Part shown: positions 5,959 through 62,818 of the stretch, piece after piece
Numbering within the stretch: position 1 is the first letter of the stretch
How the letters are laid out: every line of letters begins with the position of its first letter
NCBI GenBank assembly: GCA_035559535.1
Contig: DATMBG010000026.1
Location: forward strand, 62,001 to 126,000
Direction of reading: 5' to 3'
Length of the DNA stretch: 64,000 nt
Source of the DNA: Candidatus Limnocylindrales bacterium
Lineage (GTDB): Bacteria; Moduliflexota; Moduliflexia; Moduliflexales; JAUQPW01
Program-made: the position numbers and the translations under genes
Notes under the pieces: model-generated
What the model was told of the DNA's origin: nothing
The model's input: only the letters and a program-made list of their open reading frames with translations
Databases searched by the model: none

Positions 5959-6154
5959 TTTCCAATTTCGGAAAGGTATCCGTATCAATTTAGTAGGTTA
6001 AACGTCTCGTTTGACTTTAGGTAGAAAAAGAAACACCCCCTGGAGGGGGTCAGGGGGGGTGTTCAGACAGAAAAGTGATGCCTACTAAGTAGTTACAGTT
6101 ACTTCAGAAAGTACCTGTATCAATTTAGCAGGTGGAGGAAGCAACATCCCCTTT

Positions 6155-6346
6155 CCCCATAGACACCAGAATAAGCTGAAAAGCCCCGTCAGCAACTGTG
6201 TTAAAAGTCAAAGGGCGAACAGTGGGTAGCTCCCGACGCAAGTCGGGGGATTCAATCTTTCAGAATTTTCTTCAAGCTCCGGAGGAGCGGCCTGTTAAAC
6301 AGGTCGCTCCGCTGAAGCTAACCTTCTTATTCTGGTACCTATGGGG
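6155..6346. mobile_element. MITE-like element, copy 1, with terminal inverted repeats
   Basis: The ends are inverted repeats: CCCCATAGACACCAGAATAAG at the left and the complement of CCCCATAGGTACCAGAATAAG at the right. The interior carries GGGCGAACAGTGGGTAGC, the hairpin CCGACGCAAGTCGG, the palindrome CCTGTTAAACAGG and the trailer GCTGAAGCTAACCTT. The same interior modules recur at 9896-10063 and, inverted, at 59952-60151. No coding capacity is present, so any mobility would depend on a transposase elsewhere. Confidence 0.7.
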
Positions 6347-6510
6347 TCAGGGGGTTGGGACAATAAAAAAGATACCCTTATGAGCTTCCCTTCCCACATG
6401 CTAGAAGGACCAGGATGAGGCTGGTTCCTATCCTATAAACTTGGTCTTACGATGGGTAACAGTAAGGACAAATCCGTTGATGAGATACAGGAAGAATTAA
6501 AGAGATGGTT

Positions 6511-8565
6511 TCACCGCTCCCTTACCCCTTGCTCCCCCTTTCCTGAAGCTTCAGGAGAGGGGGATGGGAGGTGAGGTGGGGATGGGCTGGAAACCGGGGT
6601 ATCAGATAAGGGCCGGAAAACTTTGAGCGAAATAACCAGGGAGAGGACACTGAATCCATGGATACTTAATAGGATTAGATAAAATATCCCCCTGTTTAAG
6701 GGAAAAGGTTTATTTTGTATCAAACCCTCCACAAAGGTACCAAGGGAAGATTCATACACGGTCCTGAAGGTAAGATCTCCCTTTTCTTCAACTCCATGAA
6801 TCCATAAACTACCGTTTTTATAACGATCTTCGGAATGGCGCCAGGCAGTAATGGCATTTCCGGGTCTGGATTCAGGGGATTCGAGGGAGAAATAATAAGA
6901 TTTTCCTTGGGAATCTGGAATTACCGGAAACCGAAAACGATGATAGGCATTGTTACGAATCTGCCAGGCGGGAAGGGTTTGTGTGAACAGGTCCGTAGGT
7001 GCATCGGGAGTTTCTTTCAGATGAAAGATTATTGGAAAGGTATTGGTTCTGGCGTAAGTAGCTAAAAATACCTCTATTCCGGTTAAGTTCTTTGCCTCTG
7101 CCCGGAAGGTTTGACCGATTTTTTTATCACCAAAGATCTCACCAACCGTTTGATCAAAGGCTAGTTGATGAGATACGACTTGAAAAGGGAAATCATAAAA
7201 GGTGGGCAAGGTATACCTCCAGAAAGTCAGCATATTAAAGGTAAGAAATCCAAGGAGAAAAACCATCGTGAAAGGACGGTATAACCTCTTCGGAACGAGC
7301 TGATAAAGGCCGAGGACTCCGAGAATTGCAAAGGCAGAGATGGCCGGAAAGAGGTAGCGACCCTGGGTAAAAATGGTAAATCCTCCACTATCCAGAAAAG
7401 TACCGAAAAAAACCAGGAAGCAAGCAAAAATCAAAATAAGCAATCCCTGTAGCTGCCAGGTTTCCATTCGGATCTTTCTCTGAAACACCCGGATCCAGAA
7501 TATCATCAAACCCGTCAGGGACAGTATACAGAGTATCTGTAAACCCAGGTACCAGGGATCTGCCAGGGGGTACTTCATCCATCCGAAGGTATACCAGAAG
7601 CTTTGAAAAAGGTGAAGCAGAACCATTTTTATTTGGGGAACAGGAGGTTGAAATAGAAATTTAGAAAGGAATACCGGGATTGCATAGAGCACCGGAATGA
7701 CTCTTTGAGAGAGAGTCTGGATAGCCTCGGGGAAATACCAGATCCCCAAGGCGTATAGGCCTGCCAGTAAAAGAACGACATTTACGACCTTATAAAGAGT
7801 CAGAACCCAGAATCGGAGGCCTTTATGTCTCAGATGATTCCAACTCACAAGGAGTAAAGCTATCCCGGCAAGGGGAAGGGTCATAAAAACGGTTCGCTTG
7901 GTCATTAAACCCAATAGAATGCCAAAACTTAACAAAATCAGCCTGGGCATAGAGATTCCGTCTCTGATTAAAAGGATCAGCAGGTAAATAACGCCGGTAG
8001 CCAGCAGATTGGCCAGACTATCCGGATTTACCGAGGTAGTTACCAGATCAAATTGGGGGAGCAGGCCGATAAAAGCCAGAACGGCTGCTATTCTTTCGGA
8101 CTCATTTCGAAGTAATTCCCTGGCGATAAGATAGCTGAGAAGTAAGGTAACAAGTCCAAAACCCAGGGAAATCCCTCTGACCAGATAAAATTGGGTTTCT
8201 AAGCTCTTTTCACGGGCCGGGGAGAGAAGAAAAGAAACTAAAACATAGTAAAAAGGGGGAGTAATTCCGATCTGAGTTCGACTGACAAAGAGAAAAGGGA
8301 TTTCTGCAAAAGAACCCGGCAGTGGGTCCGGACGGGGAATTTGAACATGTTCCCAGTAGCGATGGCGGTCCATAGACTTAATAATAGCCTGCTGAACCGA
8401 AAGGTTAGGTTGGATCTTCAGTGAAAAGGTTTTCTGATCCAGGAGGATTTTCAGGTATTCAAAATGGGTCGGCTCATCGGGATTCTGCCAGGGAGGTAGG
8501 ATGACCCCATGAGCTATCCACGTTAAGAGAATCACACTAACCAGAGAAATATAAAGTACTTTCAT
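6511..8565 (-). CDS. DUF2142-type polytopic membrane glycosyltransferase
   Basis: 684 residues. An N-terminal membrane segment (LYISLVSVILLTWIAHG) runs into PPWQNPDEPTHFEY (24-37), the signature of the DUF2142/GT-C-like family, in which the DE acidic pair sits in the first periplasmic loop. About ten further membrane segments follow to residue 470. Residues about 480-610 form a soluble beta-rich domain with DSQGKSYYFSLES, shared with the C-terminus of the methyltransferase at 562-2061. One more membrane segment follows (IFYLILLSIHGFSVLSLVI). The last 30 residues (SPSPPHLPSPSPEASGKG) come from the TCCTGAAGCTTCAGGA repeat. The start overlaps the TPR gene stop (ATGA), so the two are translationally coupled. 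It probably transfers a sugar from a polyprenyl-phosphate donor on the periplasmic side. The acceptor is unknown. Confidence 0.8.
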   Translation of the reverse strand: MKVLYISLVSVILLTWIAHGVILPPWQNPDEPTHFEYLKILLDQKTFSLKIQPNLSVQQAIIKSMDRHRYWEHVQIPRPDPLPGSFAEIPFLFVSRTQIGITPPFYYVLVSFLLSPAREKSLETQFYLVRGISLGFGLVTLLLSYLIARELLRNESERIAAVLAFIGLLPQFDLVTTSVNPDSLANLLATGVIYLLILLIRDGISMPRLILLSFGILLGLMTKRTVFMTLPLAGIALLLVSWNHLRHKGLRFWVLTLYKVVNVVLLLAGLYALGIWYFPEAIQTLSQRVIPVLYAIPVFLSKFLFQPPVPQIKMVLLHLFQSFWYTFGWMKYPLADPWYLGLQILCILSLTGLMIFWIRVFQRKIRMETWQLQGLLILIFACFLVFFGTFLDSGGFTIFTQGRYLFPAISAFAILGVLGLYQLVPKRLYRPFTMVFLLGFLTFNMLTFWRYTLPTFYDFPFQVVSHQLAFDQTVGEIFGDKKIGQTFRAEAKNLTGIEVFLATYARTNTFPIIFHLKETPDAPTDLFTQTLPAWQIRNNAYHRFRFPVIPDSQGKSYYFSLESPESRPGNAITAWRHSEDRYKNGSLWIHGVEEKGDLTFRTVYESSLGTFVEGLIQNKPFPLNRGIFYLILLSIHGFSVLSLVISLKVFRPLSDTPVSSPSPPHLPSPSPEASGKGEQGVRER
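6531..6564. repeat. TCCTGAAGCTTCAGGA palindromic repeat, copy 1
   Basis: A perfect 16-base palindrome at 6541-6556 flanked by pyrimidine-rich then G-rich arms (CCCCCTT before, GAGGGGGAT after). It lies in the 3' end of the DUF2142 gene and encodes part of its Pro/Ser-rich tail. Other copies are inside wzx (28656-28671) and, degenerate, at 62754-62769. Confidence 0.8.
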
Positions 8566-9740
8566 GGATCTCGGCCATCATCTATTAATTTTTCAAGATA
8601 AACTCCGTTCATCCAAATATTTCGATCTTCGCCGGTTTGAGGGGAACCTCCATCATTATCAAACTCAAAAAAAATGCTAAATTTTTCCTTGCTTTCGACG
8701 TTTAATCTATAAATCTTATAATTTTCTTCCAGGTAAAGGGTTTCAATAAGTTTTTCATTATTGTAAACCTTTAATCTTGCAAATACCCCCTCCGCCGGAG
8801 AGCCTCTGGCCGAGATATTTAACAGGTACTTTCCCTTATCAAAAGGGAGGGTTTTGAATTTAACATTCCATAACATAACGATCTGGTTATGGGTCTGGGA
8901 ATCAAATTTTCCTTGTATAGGTAATAAGCTTATTAACGATACAGGATAGATATTTTTTATATTTTTCCCGGCCAGGTCTTCTCTCAGGGGAGGTGGGAGT
9001 ATTTCCCTGGCCTGTGTGTAAAAGTACTCTGCCGCGGTAAGGTCTCCAGAGGTTTTCCAGATTTTTCCAAGCTGAAAATAGACCTCTGCAAAGTCCGACT
9101 TCAAGGTCAGGCTCTTTTCAAAAGCAGCTACTGCCGCCTCCCATTCCCCGGTATAGGTATAGGCCATTCCCAGAAGGTAATACTCGTAGGGATCTTTGGG
9201 TTTAAGGTTCAGAAGTTGTCGGGTAATTCTAATGGTCTCGGGCCAGTTTTCTGTTCGTATAAAAAAGTTTCTAATTTGTTCATTGGCTGCCGGATCCTCA
9301 GGATGGGTTATTAGCCAGGAAGTATAGAAGTGTCCTGCCAGTTCCTGGAGATAAACCTGTTCGTATAGACGGCCTGTTTGCAAGTAATCTTGAGGATCGA
9401 TTCCAAAAAATTGGAAAAGAAAATCCGGACGGTACCAGCCAGCCTTTGCAAAATCTCGGTAGGCCAGCTCTGAACCCTGGGTGAGTTGGAGGAAAAGTCC
9501 TTTCTGATAGTAATATCCAAAAAGAAGGATATCGGTGGCTTTTTCAAGGAAAGAAGATTGAGAGGCATGGCGAAGAAAGGGAGGGGTGTAGAAGGGAGCG
9601 TTGGCTACAAGGACCAGATAAAAAAGTAAGGGGAGAGACCCGAGAATCGGGACGCGGAAGGTGCGGGGGATGGGGGGACACGGGGACGCGGGGATGAGGG
9701 GATTATTCCTTTCTCCCTGCTTTTCCGTATCTCCTTGCAT
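8562..9740 (-). CDS. Membrane-anchored TPR protein with carbohydrate-binding-like C-terminus
   Basis: 392 residues. Residues 1-28 (MQGDTEKQGERNN, then Pro-rich) are encoded by a GGGGACACGGGGACGCGGGG-type repeat and are probably not ancestral. Residues 31-50 are one membrane segment (PILGSLPLLFYLVLVANAPF). TPR-like helices cover about 120-250, including two clear repeats (YEYYLLGMAYTYTGEWEAAV and AEVYFQLGKIWKTSGDLTAA). Residues about 290-385 are beta-rich and end in FEFDNDGGSPQTGEDRNIW, resembling calcium-dependent xylan-binding modules. The ND and DRN residues are typical of those ligand sites. The stop overlaps the DUF2142 start, so the two likely form a functional pair, perhaps with this protein presenting acceptor or holding the glycan at the outer face of the inner membrane (inference). 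Confidence 0.7.
   Translation of the reverse strand: MQGDTEKQGERNNPLIPASPCPPIPRTFRVPILGSLPLLFYLVLVANAPFYTPPFLRHASQSSFLEKATDILLFGYYYQKGLFLQLTQGSELAYRDFAKAGWYRPDFLFQFFGIDPQDYLQTGRLYEQVYLQELAGHFYTSWLITHPEDPAANEQIRNFFIRTENWPETIRITRQLLNLKPKDPYEYYLLGMAYTYTGEWEAAVAAFEKSLTLKSDFAEVYFQLGKIWKTSGDLTAAEYFYTQAREILPPPLREDLAGKNIKNIYPVSLISLLPIQGKFDSQTHNQIVMLWNVKFKTLPFDKGKYLLNISARGSPAEGVFARLKVYNNEKLIETLYLEENYKIYRLNVESKEKFSIFFEFDNDGGSPQTGEDRNIWMNGVYLEKLIDDGRDP
9661..9700. repeat. GGGGACACGGGGACGCGGGG repeat, G-rich orientation
   Basis: Tandem GGGGACRCGGGG units lie inside the 5' end of the TPR gene. The same repeat in the C-rich orientation is at 10072-10140, so the pair brackets about 370 bases of other repeats. 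Confidence 0.75.
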
Positions 9741-27826: not shown

Positions 27827-29341
27827 TCAACCTTCCTTTTGAGGGGATGTACGCTTGACTAGCTTCTGCAATAATAAAATAACCCCTCCTATATCTTCTG
27901 AAGTCAGTAACAGGACCTGCCGGACAGGTACTTTCGATTTTCGGGTGAAGATTTCCAGGGTCAAAAGAGCACTTATAGAGTAAGAGAAAGTACTGGCTAT
28001 TGCAGCCCCGAAGATATCGAAGCGTGGAATTAACCATAAATCGAAGATAACCGTTACAACCAGTCCCACCGAAGAAACGGCCAAATTAAGCTGGGGTTTT
28101 CCGATTCCGGCGATGTATGAGGCAAGAACATTTACCACACTAAAGGCGACAATCCCAGGTAACAACCCCAGAAGCGGAGTTATACTTTGTCGAAAAGCTT
28201 CACCGTATACCCATGGCAATATCTGATCGGCAAGTAAAGCCAAGAATAGAGCCGATATAAAGCTTAGCCAGAAACTGACACGGGTGATTTGAGTTGTACG
28301 GGTCACATTCTCCGAGACGATATCCTGCAAAGCAGCGACTCTAGGCAGCAGGACGGTAGCCGCTGCATTAGAGATTAACCAGATGAGCTGGGCCAGGCTG
28401 ACGGCAAGCGTATAAAGTCCAACCCCTTTTACACCGACGAAGAAGCTGACAATGAAAACATCCAGACGATAGTTAAGGAACTGGATTAGGTTAGCCAGGT
28501 AACAGGGAAAGGCATATCTCAGAATCTCTCCGAAGCCACTGGTATCCCGTGTCGATAAGTAGAATAAAGACCTCCACGGAGAGGAAGGTGAGGGGCTTTC
28601 CGGGGTAGGTTTGTTGGATCTGACCTCTCCGACTCCCTCACCCCCTTTCCCCCTCTCCTGAAGCTTCAGGAGAGGGGGGGAGGAGGGGTATAATACTCTC
28701 AAGAAGATGAGATTGGTTAAAATTATTACGGCTACATTGATCCATATAAATATGGGTGGCGAAGGTTGGTGTTTTAGTAAGATCAGAATTCCAATTCCGG
28801 CCAGTAGCAAAACGGGTTGCAGTACCCGACTCAAGAGATCAGCCTTGTTAGCCAGGGTAATTTGTTGAAGACCGATCAATATGGCACGCCAGTAGCCGGA
28901 TAACAGACTAAAAACAAGAGAAATAACGATGGCCGTGATGATCCCGTTTCCCGTCTGAGGAGGTAAGAACAGAGTAGAATAACCGGTATATGGAAGAGTA
29001 TATAGCAACATGACCGCTAGAAGACCTTGCAGCAGAGCGGTCAATATCAACTTCAAAAACAGTAAATCGAGAGCCGCCTTCCCTCGTGCCACCACGTAGG
29101 TTATACCCGATGGGATTGAAAAACCCAGTATCATACTTAATAACGTCGTGGTTACCAATACCAGATCATAGCTACCCTTGCCGGCCGGACCCAGTGTTCG
29201 AGCAATCAAAATACTGCTTACGAGTCCTAATGGGATCGAAATAACACTGGTTCCCAGGGTATGAAGGCTACTGAACCACAACGAGGTTTTGGTAGTAGAC
29301 CAGATGGTGGAATTTTCCAACGAACCCTCTTTGCTATTCAT
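27827..29341 (-). CDS. wzx: Wzx-type polysaccharide flippase with repeat-derived insertion
   Basis: 504 residues with about 12-14 membrane segments of the MATE/MOP fold. Examples are LGLVSSILIARTLGPAGKG at the first helix, VKGVGLYTLAVSLAQLIWLI mid-protein, and LLGLLPGIVAFSVVNVLASYIAGIG late. It would flip undecaprenyl-linked repeat units to the periplasm. Residues about 219-256 (PPLLKLQERGKGG, then SNKPTPESPSPSSPW) are unlike the family. They are encoded by a C/G-rich repeat containing the perfect palindrome TCCTGAAGCTTCAGGA, inserted in frame in the loop between the sixth and seventh helices, where an extra soluble segment could be tolerated. It lies one base upstream of the GT4 gene. It is one of two flippases in the window. 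Confidence 0.88.
   Translation of the reverse strand: MNSKEGSLENSTIWSTTKTSLWFSSLHTLGTSVISIPLGLVSSILIARTLGPAGKGSYDLVLVTTTLLSMILGFSIPSGITYVVARGKAALDLLFLKLILTALLQGLLAVMLLYTLPYTGYSTLFLPPQTGNGIITAIVISLVFSLLSGYWRAILIGLQQITLANKADLLSRVLQPVLLLAGIGILILLKHQPSPPIFIWINVAVIILTNLIFLRVLYPSSPPLLKLQERGKGGEGVGEVRSNKPTPESPSPSSPWRSLFYLSTRDTSGFGEILRYAFPCYLANLIQFLNYRLDVFIVSFFVGVKGVGLYTLAVSLAQLIWLISNAAATVLLPRVAALQDIVSENVTRTTQITRVSFWLSFISALFLALLADQILPWVYGEAFRQSITPLLGLLPGIVAFSVVNVLASYIAGIGKPQLNLAVSSVGLVVTVIFDLWLIPRFDIFGAAIASTFSYSISALLTLEIFTRKSKVPVRQVLLLTSEDIGGVILLLQKLVKRTSPQKEG
28656..28671. repeat. TCCTGAAGCTTCAGGA palindromic repeat, copy 2, inside wzx
   Basis: A perfect 16-base palindrome with CCCCTC before it and GAGGGG after it, as at 6541-6556. 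Additional C-rich sequence (about 28585-28655) belongs to the same insertion. It leaves the wzx frame open. Confidence 0.85.
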
Positions 29342-29427: not shown

Positions 29428-29988
29428 TCATCCCAGGATATCTTGGACGGCCAATCCCACATCGGGGAAGGCCTGAGGAAAAAGGTTTTGATCACACTGA
29501 AATCGTTTAATTTCCAGGTATCCTTGAGGTGATGGCTTCTGGTAGACTTCGATACAATCTGCGGTCAGGTCTACCAGCCAGACCTCCGGAATCCCAGACT
29601 TTGCGTACAAAGGTATCTTTACTTCTCGGTCGTAGGTTAAAGGAGTGTCGGCTACTTCCACAACAGGCAGGACATCCTGGGGTTGGGGATGGGCTTGAGC
29701 ATAGAAATCGCTACGTGGTCGAAGCAAGGCCAGATCTGGCTGCAGTTCTGAGTGTTCACTTAAATAAATGGGATTCTGAACACTTACTATAGCACGTTCT
29801 CCTACCCATTGAGAGAAGAGTCGGGTCAAACGATTTACACAAGCGGCATGTTGACTGCCGATCGGAGGCACTTCTACAATCTCTCCTTTGATGAGTTCCA
29901 CCCGATCATCCTCCGAGAGGATTCCGGCCTTTGCCATTTGATGGTATTCTTCTACCGTAAAAAGACGCTTTGAAACTTGCGTGGACAT
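29428..29988 (-). CDS. Uma2 family putative restriction-endonuclease-like protein
   Basis: 186 residues, intact. The N-terminal helix FTVEEYHQMAKAGILSEDDR is followed by VELIKGEIVEVPPIG. The PD-(D/E)xK core appears as ELQPDLALLRPR, then VVEVADTPLTYDREVKIPLYAKSGIPEVWLVD (given as a region near 110-145), with the candidate catalytic Asp, Glu and Lys. Uma2 (DUF820) proteins are abundant in Cyanobacteria, Chloroflexi and Planctomycetes-like genomes, often in many copies. Their biological role is unsettled. It has no evident link to polysaccharide synthesis and, with the broken Uma2 locus next door, marks a small accessory island between wzx and the aminotransferase gene. Confidence 0.88.
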   Translation of the reverse strand: MSTQVSKRLFTVEEYHQMAKAGILSEDDRVELIKGEIVEVPPIGSQHAACVNRLTRLFSQWVGERAIVSVQNPIYLSEHSELQPDLALLRPRSDFYAQAHPQPQDVLPVVEVADTPLTYDREVKIPLYAKSGIPEVWLVDLTADCIEVYQKPSPQGYLEIKRFQCDQNLFPQAFPDVGLAVQDILG

Positions 29989-30101
29989 GACCAGCCTCGT
30001 TATAAGGAGGTTACAAATCTTTAGGTTCTACCCCCAGAGCTTGCAGTTGGGCTACCAGACTTTCTGCGCGTTGTCGTTCCTGCTCACGTTGTGCTACAAC
30101 T

Positions 30102-30130
30102 GGAGGGGCGCACGGCCGTGCGCCCGTACT
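30102..30130. repeat. GCGCACGGCCGTGCGC palindromic repeat, copy A
   Basis: A 16-base perfect palindrome flanked by GGAGGG on the left and CCGTACT on the right, 29 bases in all. It is inserted in the Uma2 pseudogene, inverted relative to copy B at 30271-30299. Confidence 0.85.
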
Positions 30131-30270
30131 AGGTAGCGAAAGGTTCACCATCGGGTTGATATAATCGCAGCTCCCCCTCCTCCAATTCAAACTATACTCC
30201 CAGAAGGGGGCTGACCCATCCCACCATTTGTTCAATTTCCTCCAATTCCTCACCAAATCTGGCCAACTGC

Positions 30271-30299
30271 GTACGGGCGCACGGCCGTGCGCCCCTCCA
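30271..30299. repeat. GCGCACGGCCGTGCGC palindromic repeat, copy B
   Basis: Same element as copy A in the opposite orientation (GTACGG left, CCCTCCA right). Its insertion causes the first frame break of the Uma2 pseudogene. Confidence 0.85.
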
Positions 30300-30713
30300 A
30301 ATCCGGATCGTACGCATAATACTCTTCTACGTAACGTTCATAAAAGCGGAACTTGCGTGTCATCTCGGCCAGGGTATTACTGGGTGACAGAATTTCAAAC
30401 ACAACCTGGGGCGGGATTCCCCCCTCCTGCCATTGTAAATACGAACCCCGGTCCCCCTTGGGTCGTCCAAAGACCACCATTATGTCCGGAACCGTACGAA
30501 TATCAGGTCGACCTTCCACAGGATACCACAACAAGTTGCCGGCTCCAAACACATCTTCCCGCTCGCGAAAGAGCGCCTCCAGTCCCTTCTCAATGGTTAC
30601 AATCCAACGGAATTGCTTGGTATTATCGGCTATGGGTCGTCCATCACTTTCTGGATAGATTATCGGTCTGGTTAGTAAAGATACGGCCATAGGAGTTTGA
30701 TCCCTCTTAAAGG

Positions 30714-62408: not shown

Positions 62409-62672
62409 AATCTTGATAAATCCTTAAAAGCTCCATCAGGAGCTGACTGTTTGGACCCCCAAACGTCTCGTTTGACTCCTCCAGCAGCAATGTGGGTTGG
62501 ATCTGTTCCGAATCGGTCGCTCCTGGTGGAGCTTCCTCTCATAAGGCTGGGAATCTGTTTTGCTACAAATAGATCCCTCCTAACGGGGTTTTTAAGGTAT
62601 ATTAAAACTAACTTTACAAGGTAGTATACTTTGTAAAGTTAATTCTGGGTGATTCTCCCTCACCCTCGGCTC

Positions 62673-62697
62673 CCTCCCTCTTCTCCCTCCCCGTGGA
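62673..62697. repeat. C-rich 25-base repeat right of the ligase gene
   Basis: CCTCCCTCTTCTCCCTCCCC followed by GTGGA, the exact reverse complement of 60598-60622. Confidence 0.8.
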
Positions 62698-62753
62698 CGG
62701 GGAGGGAAGGGGTGGGGGCGGAAAGGGGAGTGGGAAGATCTCCGGGCCGCCTC

Positions 62754-62769
62754 TCCCGAAGCCTCAGGA
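62754..62769. repeat. TCCTGAAGCTTCAGGA family, degenerate copy 3
   Basis: TCCCGAAGCCTCAGGA, two mismatches from the perfect palindrome at 6541 and 28656, again with CTC before and GAAGGGGG after it. Confidence 0.6.
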
Positions 62770-62818
62770 GAAGGGGGTTGGGGGGGATGAGGGCAGAACA
62801 GTTAAAAGTACTAAGTAA

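Follow-up and report, generated by a model that had tools for sequence, protein, structure and literature searches.

The window, a stretch of 64,000 nucleotides from a MAG of an uncultured bacterium (genome G000), contains a wzx-like flippase gene with a C/G-rich palindrome inside its coding region. This raised the questions of how a repeat came to lie in frame in a membrane transporter, and what selection has kept of it since. From the analysis of the sequence and its comparison with the genome of a sister species (G001), the best explanation, to which we give a probability of about 0.88, was a MITE-like, RPE-like selfish palindrome that was inserted before the two species split and that Wzx tolerates, in frame, in one of its inter-helix loops.

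A lengthened loop between TM6 and TM7 of the flippase

27827..29341, minus strand: wzx-like flippase gene, MOP/MATE-type, 504 aa (from ORF, translation, Pfam and the G001 orthologue)
28556..28693, minus strand: lengthened part of the TM6-TM7 loop, about residues 217-262 (from alignment and hydropathy)
28641..28686, no strand assigned: central palindrome P1 with 23-nt arms and the core TCCTGAAGCTTCAGGA at 28656-28671 (from pattern and palindrome search)

The product of 27827-29341 matched the Pfam families Polysacc_synt and MurJ, and the Polysacc_synt/MurJ-type domain scored above the curated cut-off, which assigned it to the Wzx/MOP flippases. No solved structure was found for it by sequence search at E <= 1. 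As the original prediction had proposed, a palindromic repeat was located in the gene, at 28641-28686, and the frame was open through the whole 504-aa ORF. The loop length was compared with that of 26 distant homologues of about 25-32% identity. Between the flanking anchors of the alignment, the TM6-TM7 segment was 57 residues in the window protein and 79 in that of G001, versus a median of 16 in the homologues (range 10-22, plus one of 44), which agreed with the proposed inter-helix placement. The insert had been assigned to residues 219-256 and was indeed found there, but the whole lengthened loop was wider, about residues 211-267. The loop is presumably cytoplasmic, as judged from the general topology of the MOP family. 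An example of the peptide encoded by the insert is SNKPTPESPSPSSPWR.

The same insert in the sister species

28675..28676, minus strand: approximate point where 66 nt of G001 (22 codons, including the left arm of the element described below) are absent in the window, the exact base being ambiguous within a C run

A clear wzx orthologue was found with the protein in 1 of 58 other genomes searched, namely in G001, which belongs to the same genus, and the two genes were 90-91% identical in DNA and 85% in protein. The insert of G001 was located at the same site and in frame and was 66 nt longer, with a total of 147 nt, or 49 codons, in one open frame. No other internal length difference of at least 5 residues was detected between the two Wzx proteins. 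Since the shortfall of the window copy equals 22 codons, the reading frame survives, and the additional 66 nt in G001 explain the anatomy of the element. A peptide shared by close relatives but specified by unrelated DNA had been set as the refuting case; this was examined, and the segment of G001 was encoded by homologous repeat DNA. An empty wzx site was not found, and no genome among those searched was close enough to provide one; that an insertion took place is deduced from the distant homologues.

Selection and RNA folding in the loop

Outside the loop (456 codons), the comparison of G000 with G001 gave a dN of 0.041, a dS of 0.233 and a dN/dS of 0.18, while the values in the loop were 0.19, 0.255 and 0.75, and the two kinds of change differed between the loop and the rest of the gene (Fisher p = 0.004). 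The dS of the loop was close to that of the gene, which indicated that, by its synonymous changes, the insert dates back to the species split. In both genomes only the used frame of the loop was open and the other two held stops. The loop is under relaxed constraint and nearly free to change except for its frame.

The hairpin of the window insert was strong (-38.9 kcal/mol, z -4.3), but that of the G001 insert had decayed (z -0.7), which speaks against the conservation of a function at the RNA level. Among the Rfam families, only microRNA models matched over the insert, far below their cut-offs, as is expected by chance for a strong hairpin.

These results bear on whether the insert is adaptive, either through its mRNA hairpin or through its Pro/Ser/Gly-rich peptide, which might have been recruited, for example, for translational pausing between the flippase halves or for binding a partner in the export machine. 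Such a role would be compatible with the strong hairpin in the window and with the retention of the insert since before the species split. It is at odds with the decayed hairpin of G001, with the high dN/dS of the loop compared with the rest of the gene and with the 22-residue length difference between the species, and we consider it quite improbable. A large insertion in a transporter and a weakly constrained loop could also point to a wzx gene that was killed or is being killed, that is, an early pseudogene. However, the ORF was intact in both species and the low dN/dS over the 456 codons outside the loop indicated purifying selection after the insertion, which makes this reading highly unlikely.

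The insert belongs to a family of dispersed palindromic elements

28595..28637, minus strand: right arm of the full-length element, GGGAGTCGGAGAGGTCAGATCCAACAAACCTACCCCGGAAAGC (profile from 10 other copies)
6529..6575, no strand assigned: another P1 copy, in the 3'-terminal part of the gene 6511-8565 (G001 lacks 47 nt at this site)
62653..62801, no strand assigned: intergenic composite with a degenerate P1 core at 62754-62769 (core search)

The core TCCTGAAGCTTCAGGA was present in the window exactly at 28656-28671 and at 6541-6556, and with 2 mismatches at 62754-62769, giving 3 matches versus 0.04 expected. The second exact match confirmed a further copy at the end of the 6511-8565 gene, although the name DUF2142 proposed for this gene had no Pfam support at E <= 0.001. 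In G000 (5.6 Mb), 24 copies of the 16-nt core were counted, including 9 exact and 15 one-mismatch copies, while the reversed control pattern gave 0 matches genome-wide; G001 contained 28 copies. BLAST with the wzx insert led to dozens of related places, and within the GTDB collection the exact 26-mer CCCTCTCCTGAAGCTTCAGGAGAGGG was confined to the sister MAG JZ-2.bins.100.201901 (G001), in a scan that may leave out the window's own records.

The element had been described as a palindrome, which holds for its centre, but P1 is part of a larger element of roughly 145-151 nt, composed of a left arm, the central palindrome and a right arm. To the right of the palindrome, the wzx insert of both species had AGTCGGAGAGGTCAG.TCCAACAAACCT.CCCC.GAAA, and to the left, that of G001 had TTTTTCAGGGATGGGTTTTTCTCTAACTTAGCCCCC. 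These flanks corresponded to the two arms of the repeat seen in other copies (L192-L221), which run from CTTTTAGGGGTAGGTTTTTTCTAACCTAACCCCC to GGGAAGGGGAGTCGGAGGGGTTAGGCCCAAAAAACCTGCCCTTGTAAG and are mostly 145-151 nt long. In the window gene, only the right arm (28595-28637) was present. Arm profiles were built without any wzx copy and controlled by 1000 dinucleotide shuffles. The right-arm profile scored 36.3 bits on the wzx insert of G000 and 35.2 on that of G001 (shuffle maximum 10.7), and the left-arm profile scored 26.5 bits, in the wzx of G001 only (shuffle maximum 12.1). In this way, the proposed insertion of a dispersed repeat was supported by the genome copies, by the independent arm profiles and by the fuller copy of G001 at the same site. 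The loop might still be merely long and of low complexity in the genus, and its resemblance to the repeat an effect of composition, since it is C/G-rich and the one homologue with 44 residues has a Pro/Ala-rich loop of its own. But the scores were far above those of shuffles with the same dinucleotide make-up, and the exact 16-mer core had a 24-copy family with a zero control; these tests largely refuted the compositional reading, which is left with very little probability.

Several traits of a MITE were observed. The element is short, its ends CTTTTAGGGGTAGGTTTTTT / AAAAAACCTGCCCTTGTAAG are inverted repeats, and it has no transposase gene of its own; on account of these ends it looks like a MITE. 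No target duplication was clear, and the flanks were themselves C/G-rich nested repeats. Canonical 145-nt copies were observed in L196, L198 and L200 (about 1500-1650), and the L200 copy had a cloverleaf-like fold (z -5.5), in which a closing stem enclosed three hairpins. The central palindrome was also found without arms, and in some copies its middle was swapped for another palindrome. The repeats of the G000 genome are nested mosaics. A second palindrome, TGTAGGGGCGGGAGGCCTCCCGCCCCTACA, was observed to replace the palindrome centre in L092 (about 2000-2130) and at the ends of the G000 contigs C3, C13, C21, C25 and C43, and several contigs of G000 broke at this palindrome-within-palindrome. 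A misassembly of the MAG at such a repeat, which the contig ends inside these repeats might suggest, is hardly credible as the source of the element in wzx, because a separate contig of a different species had it at the same site and in the same frame, with 90-91% identical flanks and gene-typical synonymous divergence.

Other copies in and near genes

The gene context of the copies was judged genome-wide from stretches of 3-4 kb around each and from their ORFs. In G000, 19 of the 24 cores were outside long ORFs, 3 were inside and 2 were at C-termini. In G001, 27 of 28 were outside long ORFs and only the wzx copy was inside. Among the 30 loci holding arms, no match was inside a long ORF and 1 overlapped a gene end. 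Six of the 24 core sites of G000 were common to G001. Depending on the frame, the core was read as SPEASG (three genes) or LLKLQE (two genes), and the third frame has a TGA.

Besides wzx, the internal in-frame copies of G000 were found in genes for a PA14-YfhO-like membrane protein and a CheA-like hybrid kinase. The former (L155:2648-6262, on G000:C18) contained the in-frame palindrome EEPPHLLSPSPEASGEGELGGEGQE with the core at G000:C18:3029, and its counterpart in G001 was without the insert and 14 codons shorter (net 42 nt, in frame). In the kinase (Hpt, HATPase, CheW and receiver domains; L105:1307-4000 on G000:C25, core at C25:85324), the CheW domain was split in frame by roughly 60-70 residues, which appear to derive from two kinds of repeat; no match to this gene was found in G001. 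The two C-terminal copies belonged to the 6511-8565 product and to thiamine-phosphate synthase. The P1 copy altered and lengthened the C-terminus of the former, and the C-terminus of the latter (L078:1971-2678, on G000:C35) was rewritten by a block of several repeats of roughly 365 nt, which was absent in G001. Thus 3 of the 4 genic sites other than wzx, namely the YfhO-like and the two C-terminal ones, were empty in G001. Presence/absence polymorphism at orthologous sites, here three filled in G000 and empty in G001, is a further trait of MITEs, although the repeat may have been lost from these sites in G001 instead of being gained in G000.

It had also been proposed that repeat-derived peptides entered at least four proteins of the locus. 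This was sustained for two of them, Wzx and the C-terminus of the 6511-8565 product, but the C-rich segments of 562-2061 and of the N-terminus of 8562-9740 were rejected as copies of the element, as they are runs of the CCCACACT and CCGCGTCCCC types.

Additionally, other features were recorded. In the methyltransferase-like gene 562-2061, repeats of the CCCACACTC type (SHTPTLPHSHTSLPSFPYSPP) formed an in-frame run at about 1200-1260, and a G001 contig started at the same place. Other dispersed repeats of about 100-250 nt, present at dozens of places in G001, were located at 6109-6357 of the window and at L078:1635-2020. The stretch 29428-30300, with an ORF at 29428-29988, was missing from the G001 contig, whose matches to the two flanks were only about 37 nt apart.

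Discussion

Our results point to the following history of the wzx insert. A non-autonomous palindromic repeat, about 147 nt long, would have entered wzx between the sixth and seventh helices in the common ancestor with G001, probably by transposition. The gene would have stayed open because the length of the element was a multiple of three and the used frame had no stop. The loop of the product would thereby have grown by about 49 residues, many of them Pro, Ser, Gly or charged, and it seems to tolerate them. Thereafter selection would have kept the frame but hardly the sequence, and in the lineage of the window a deletion of 66 nt, also divisible by three, would have removed the left-arm side, the G001 form being probably the ancestral one. 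The element in Wzx would then be a passenger with no evident benefit, which survives because the site is permissive. The insert-bearing Wzx protein is probably made and working.

Most descriptions of in-frame coding palindromes concern Rickettsia, with a few other bacteria also represented. A large proportion of the Rickettsia palindromic elements (RPEs) lie inside genes, and the peptide they carry is conserved. They are palindromic elements of about 150 bp that occur in frame in unrelated protein genes, at sites considered compatible with the fold (PMC10969869, citing Ogata et al. 2000, 2002), and in a review of in-frame fusion by intragenic MITEs they represent the extreme case (PMC10969869). 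The element studied here resembles them in behaviour, as a palindromic repeat that is dispersed in the genome and is in frame inside genes of known, unrelated function (3 of 24 copies internal). However, it belongs to another bacterial lineage, most of its cores (19/24 in G000, 27/28 in G001) are outside long ORFs, and it has no single preferred frame with a conserved peptide, since SPEASG or LLKLQE is encoded according to the frame. QMITE1 and QMITE2 of Coxiella burnetii are small non-autonomous elements with terminal inverted repeats and several dozen copies, which are mostly intergenic or at the 3' ends of genes, with some in-frame C-terminal extensions and few copies in the middle of ORFs (PMC5896051). 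The distribution found here is similar, mostly intergenic or at 3' ends with few copies mid-ORF, but neither a clear target-site duplication nor a related insertion sequence was identified for our element. The short C/G-rich intergenic palindromes forming mosaics are also reminiscent of REP/BIME sequences. Differently from REP/BIME-RAYT, no Y1_Tnp protein was found in G000: a search for the RAYT transposase (Y1_Tnp, PF01797) gave 0 matches in this 96%-complete genome, while 5 of 14 control genomes were positive, and a REP/RAYT system was rejected on this test.

The wzx insertion is therefore a known phenomenon in a new lineage, well documented and not categorically new. It places a coding palindrome in the 5.6-Mb genome of an uncultured bacterium whose sister species has a fuller insert. 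The insert can be dated relative to the species split, and it separates the part kept by selection, the frame, from the parts that were not kept, the peptide and the hairpin. It also cautions that, in such genomes, a segment of a protein can turn out to be repeat DNA. A broader proposal, possible but doubtful at present, is that the nested palindromes of this genus form a mosaic, coding-competent family which repeatedly adds linker peptides to the inter-helix loops and linkers of unrelated proteins, and does so in a large genome and in a group other than Rickettsiales. If this is true, the family would offer a natural system for studying how proteins are lengthened by selfish DNA.
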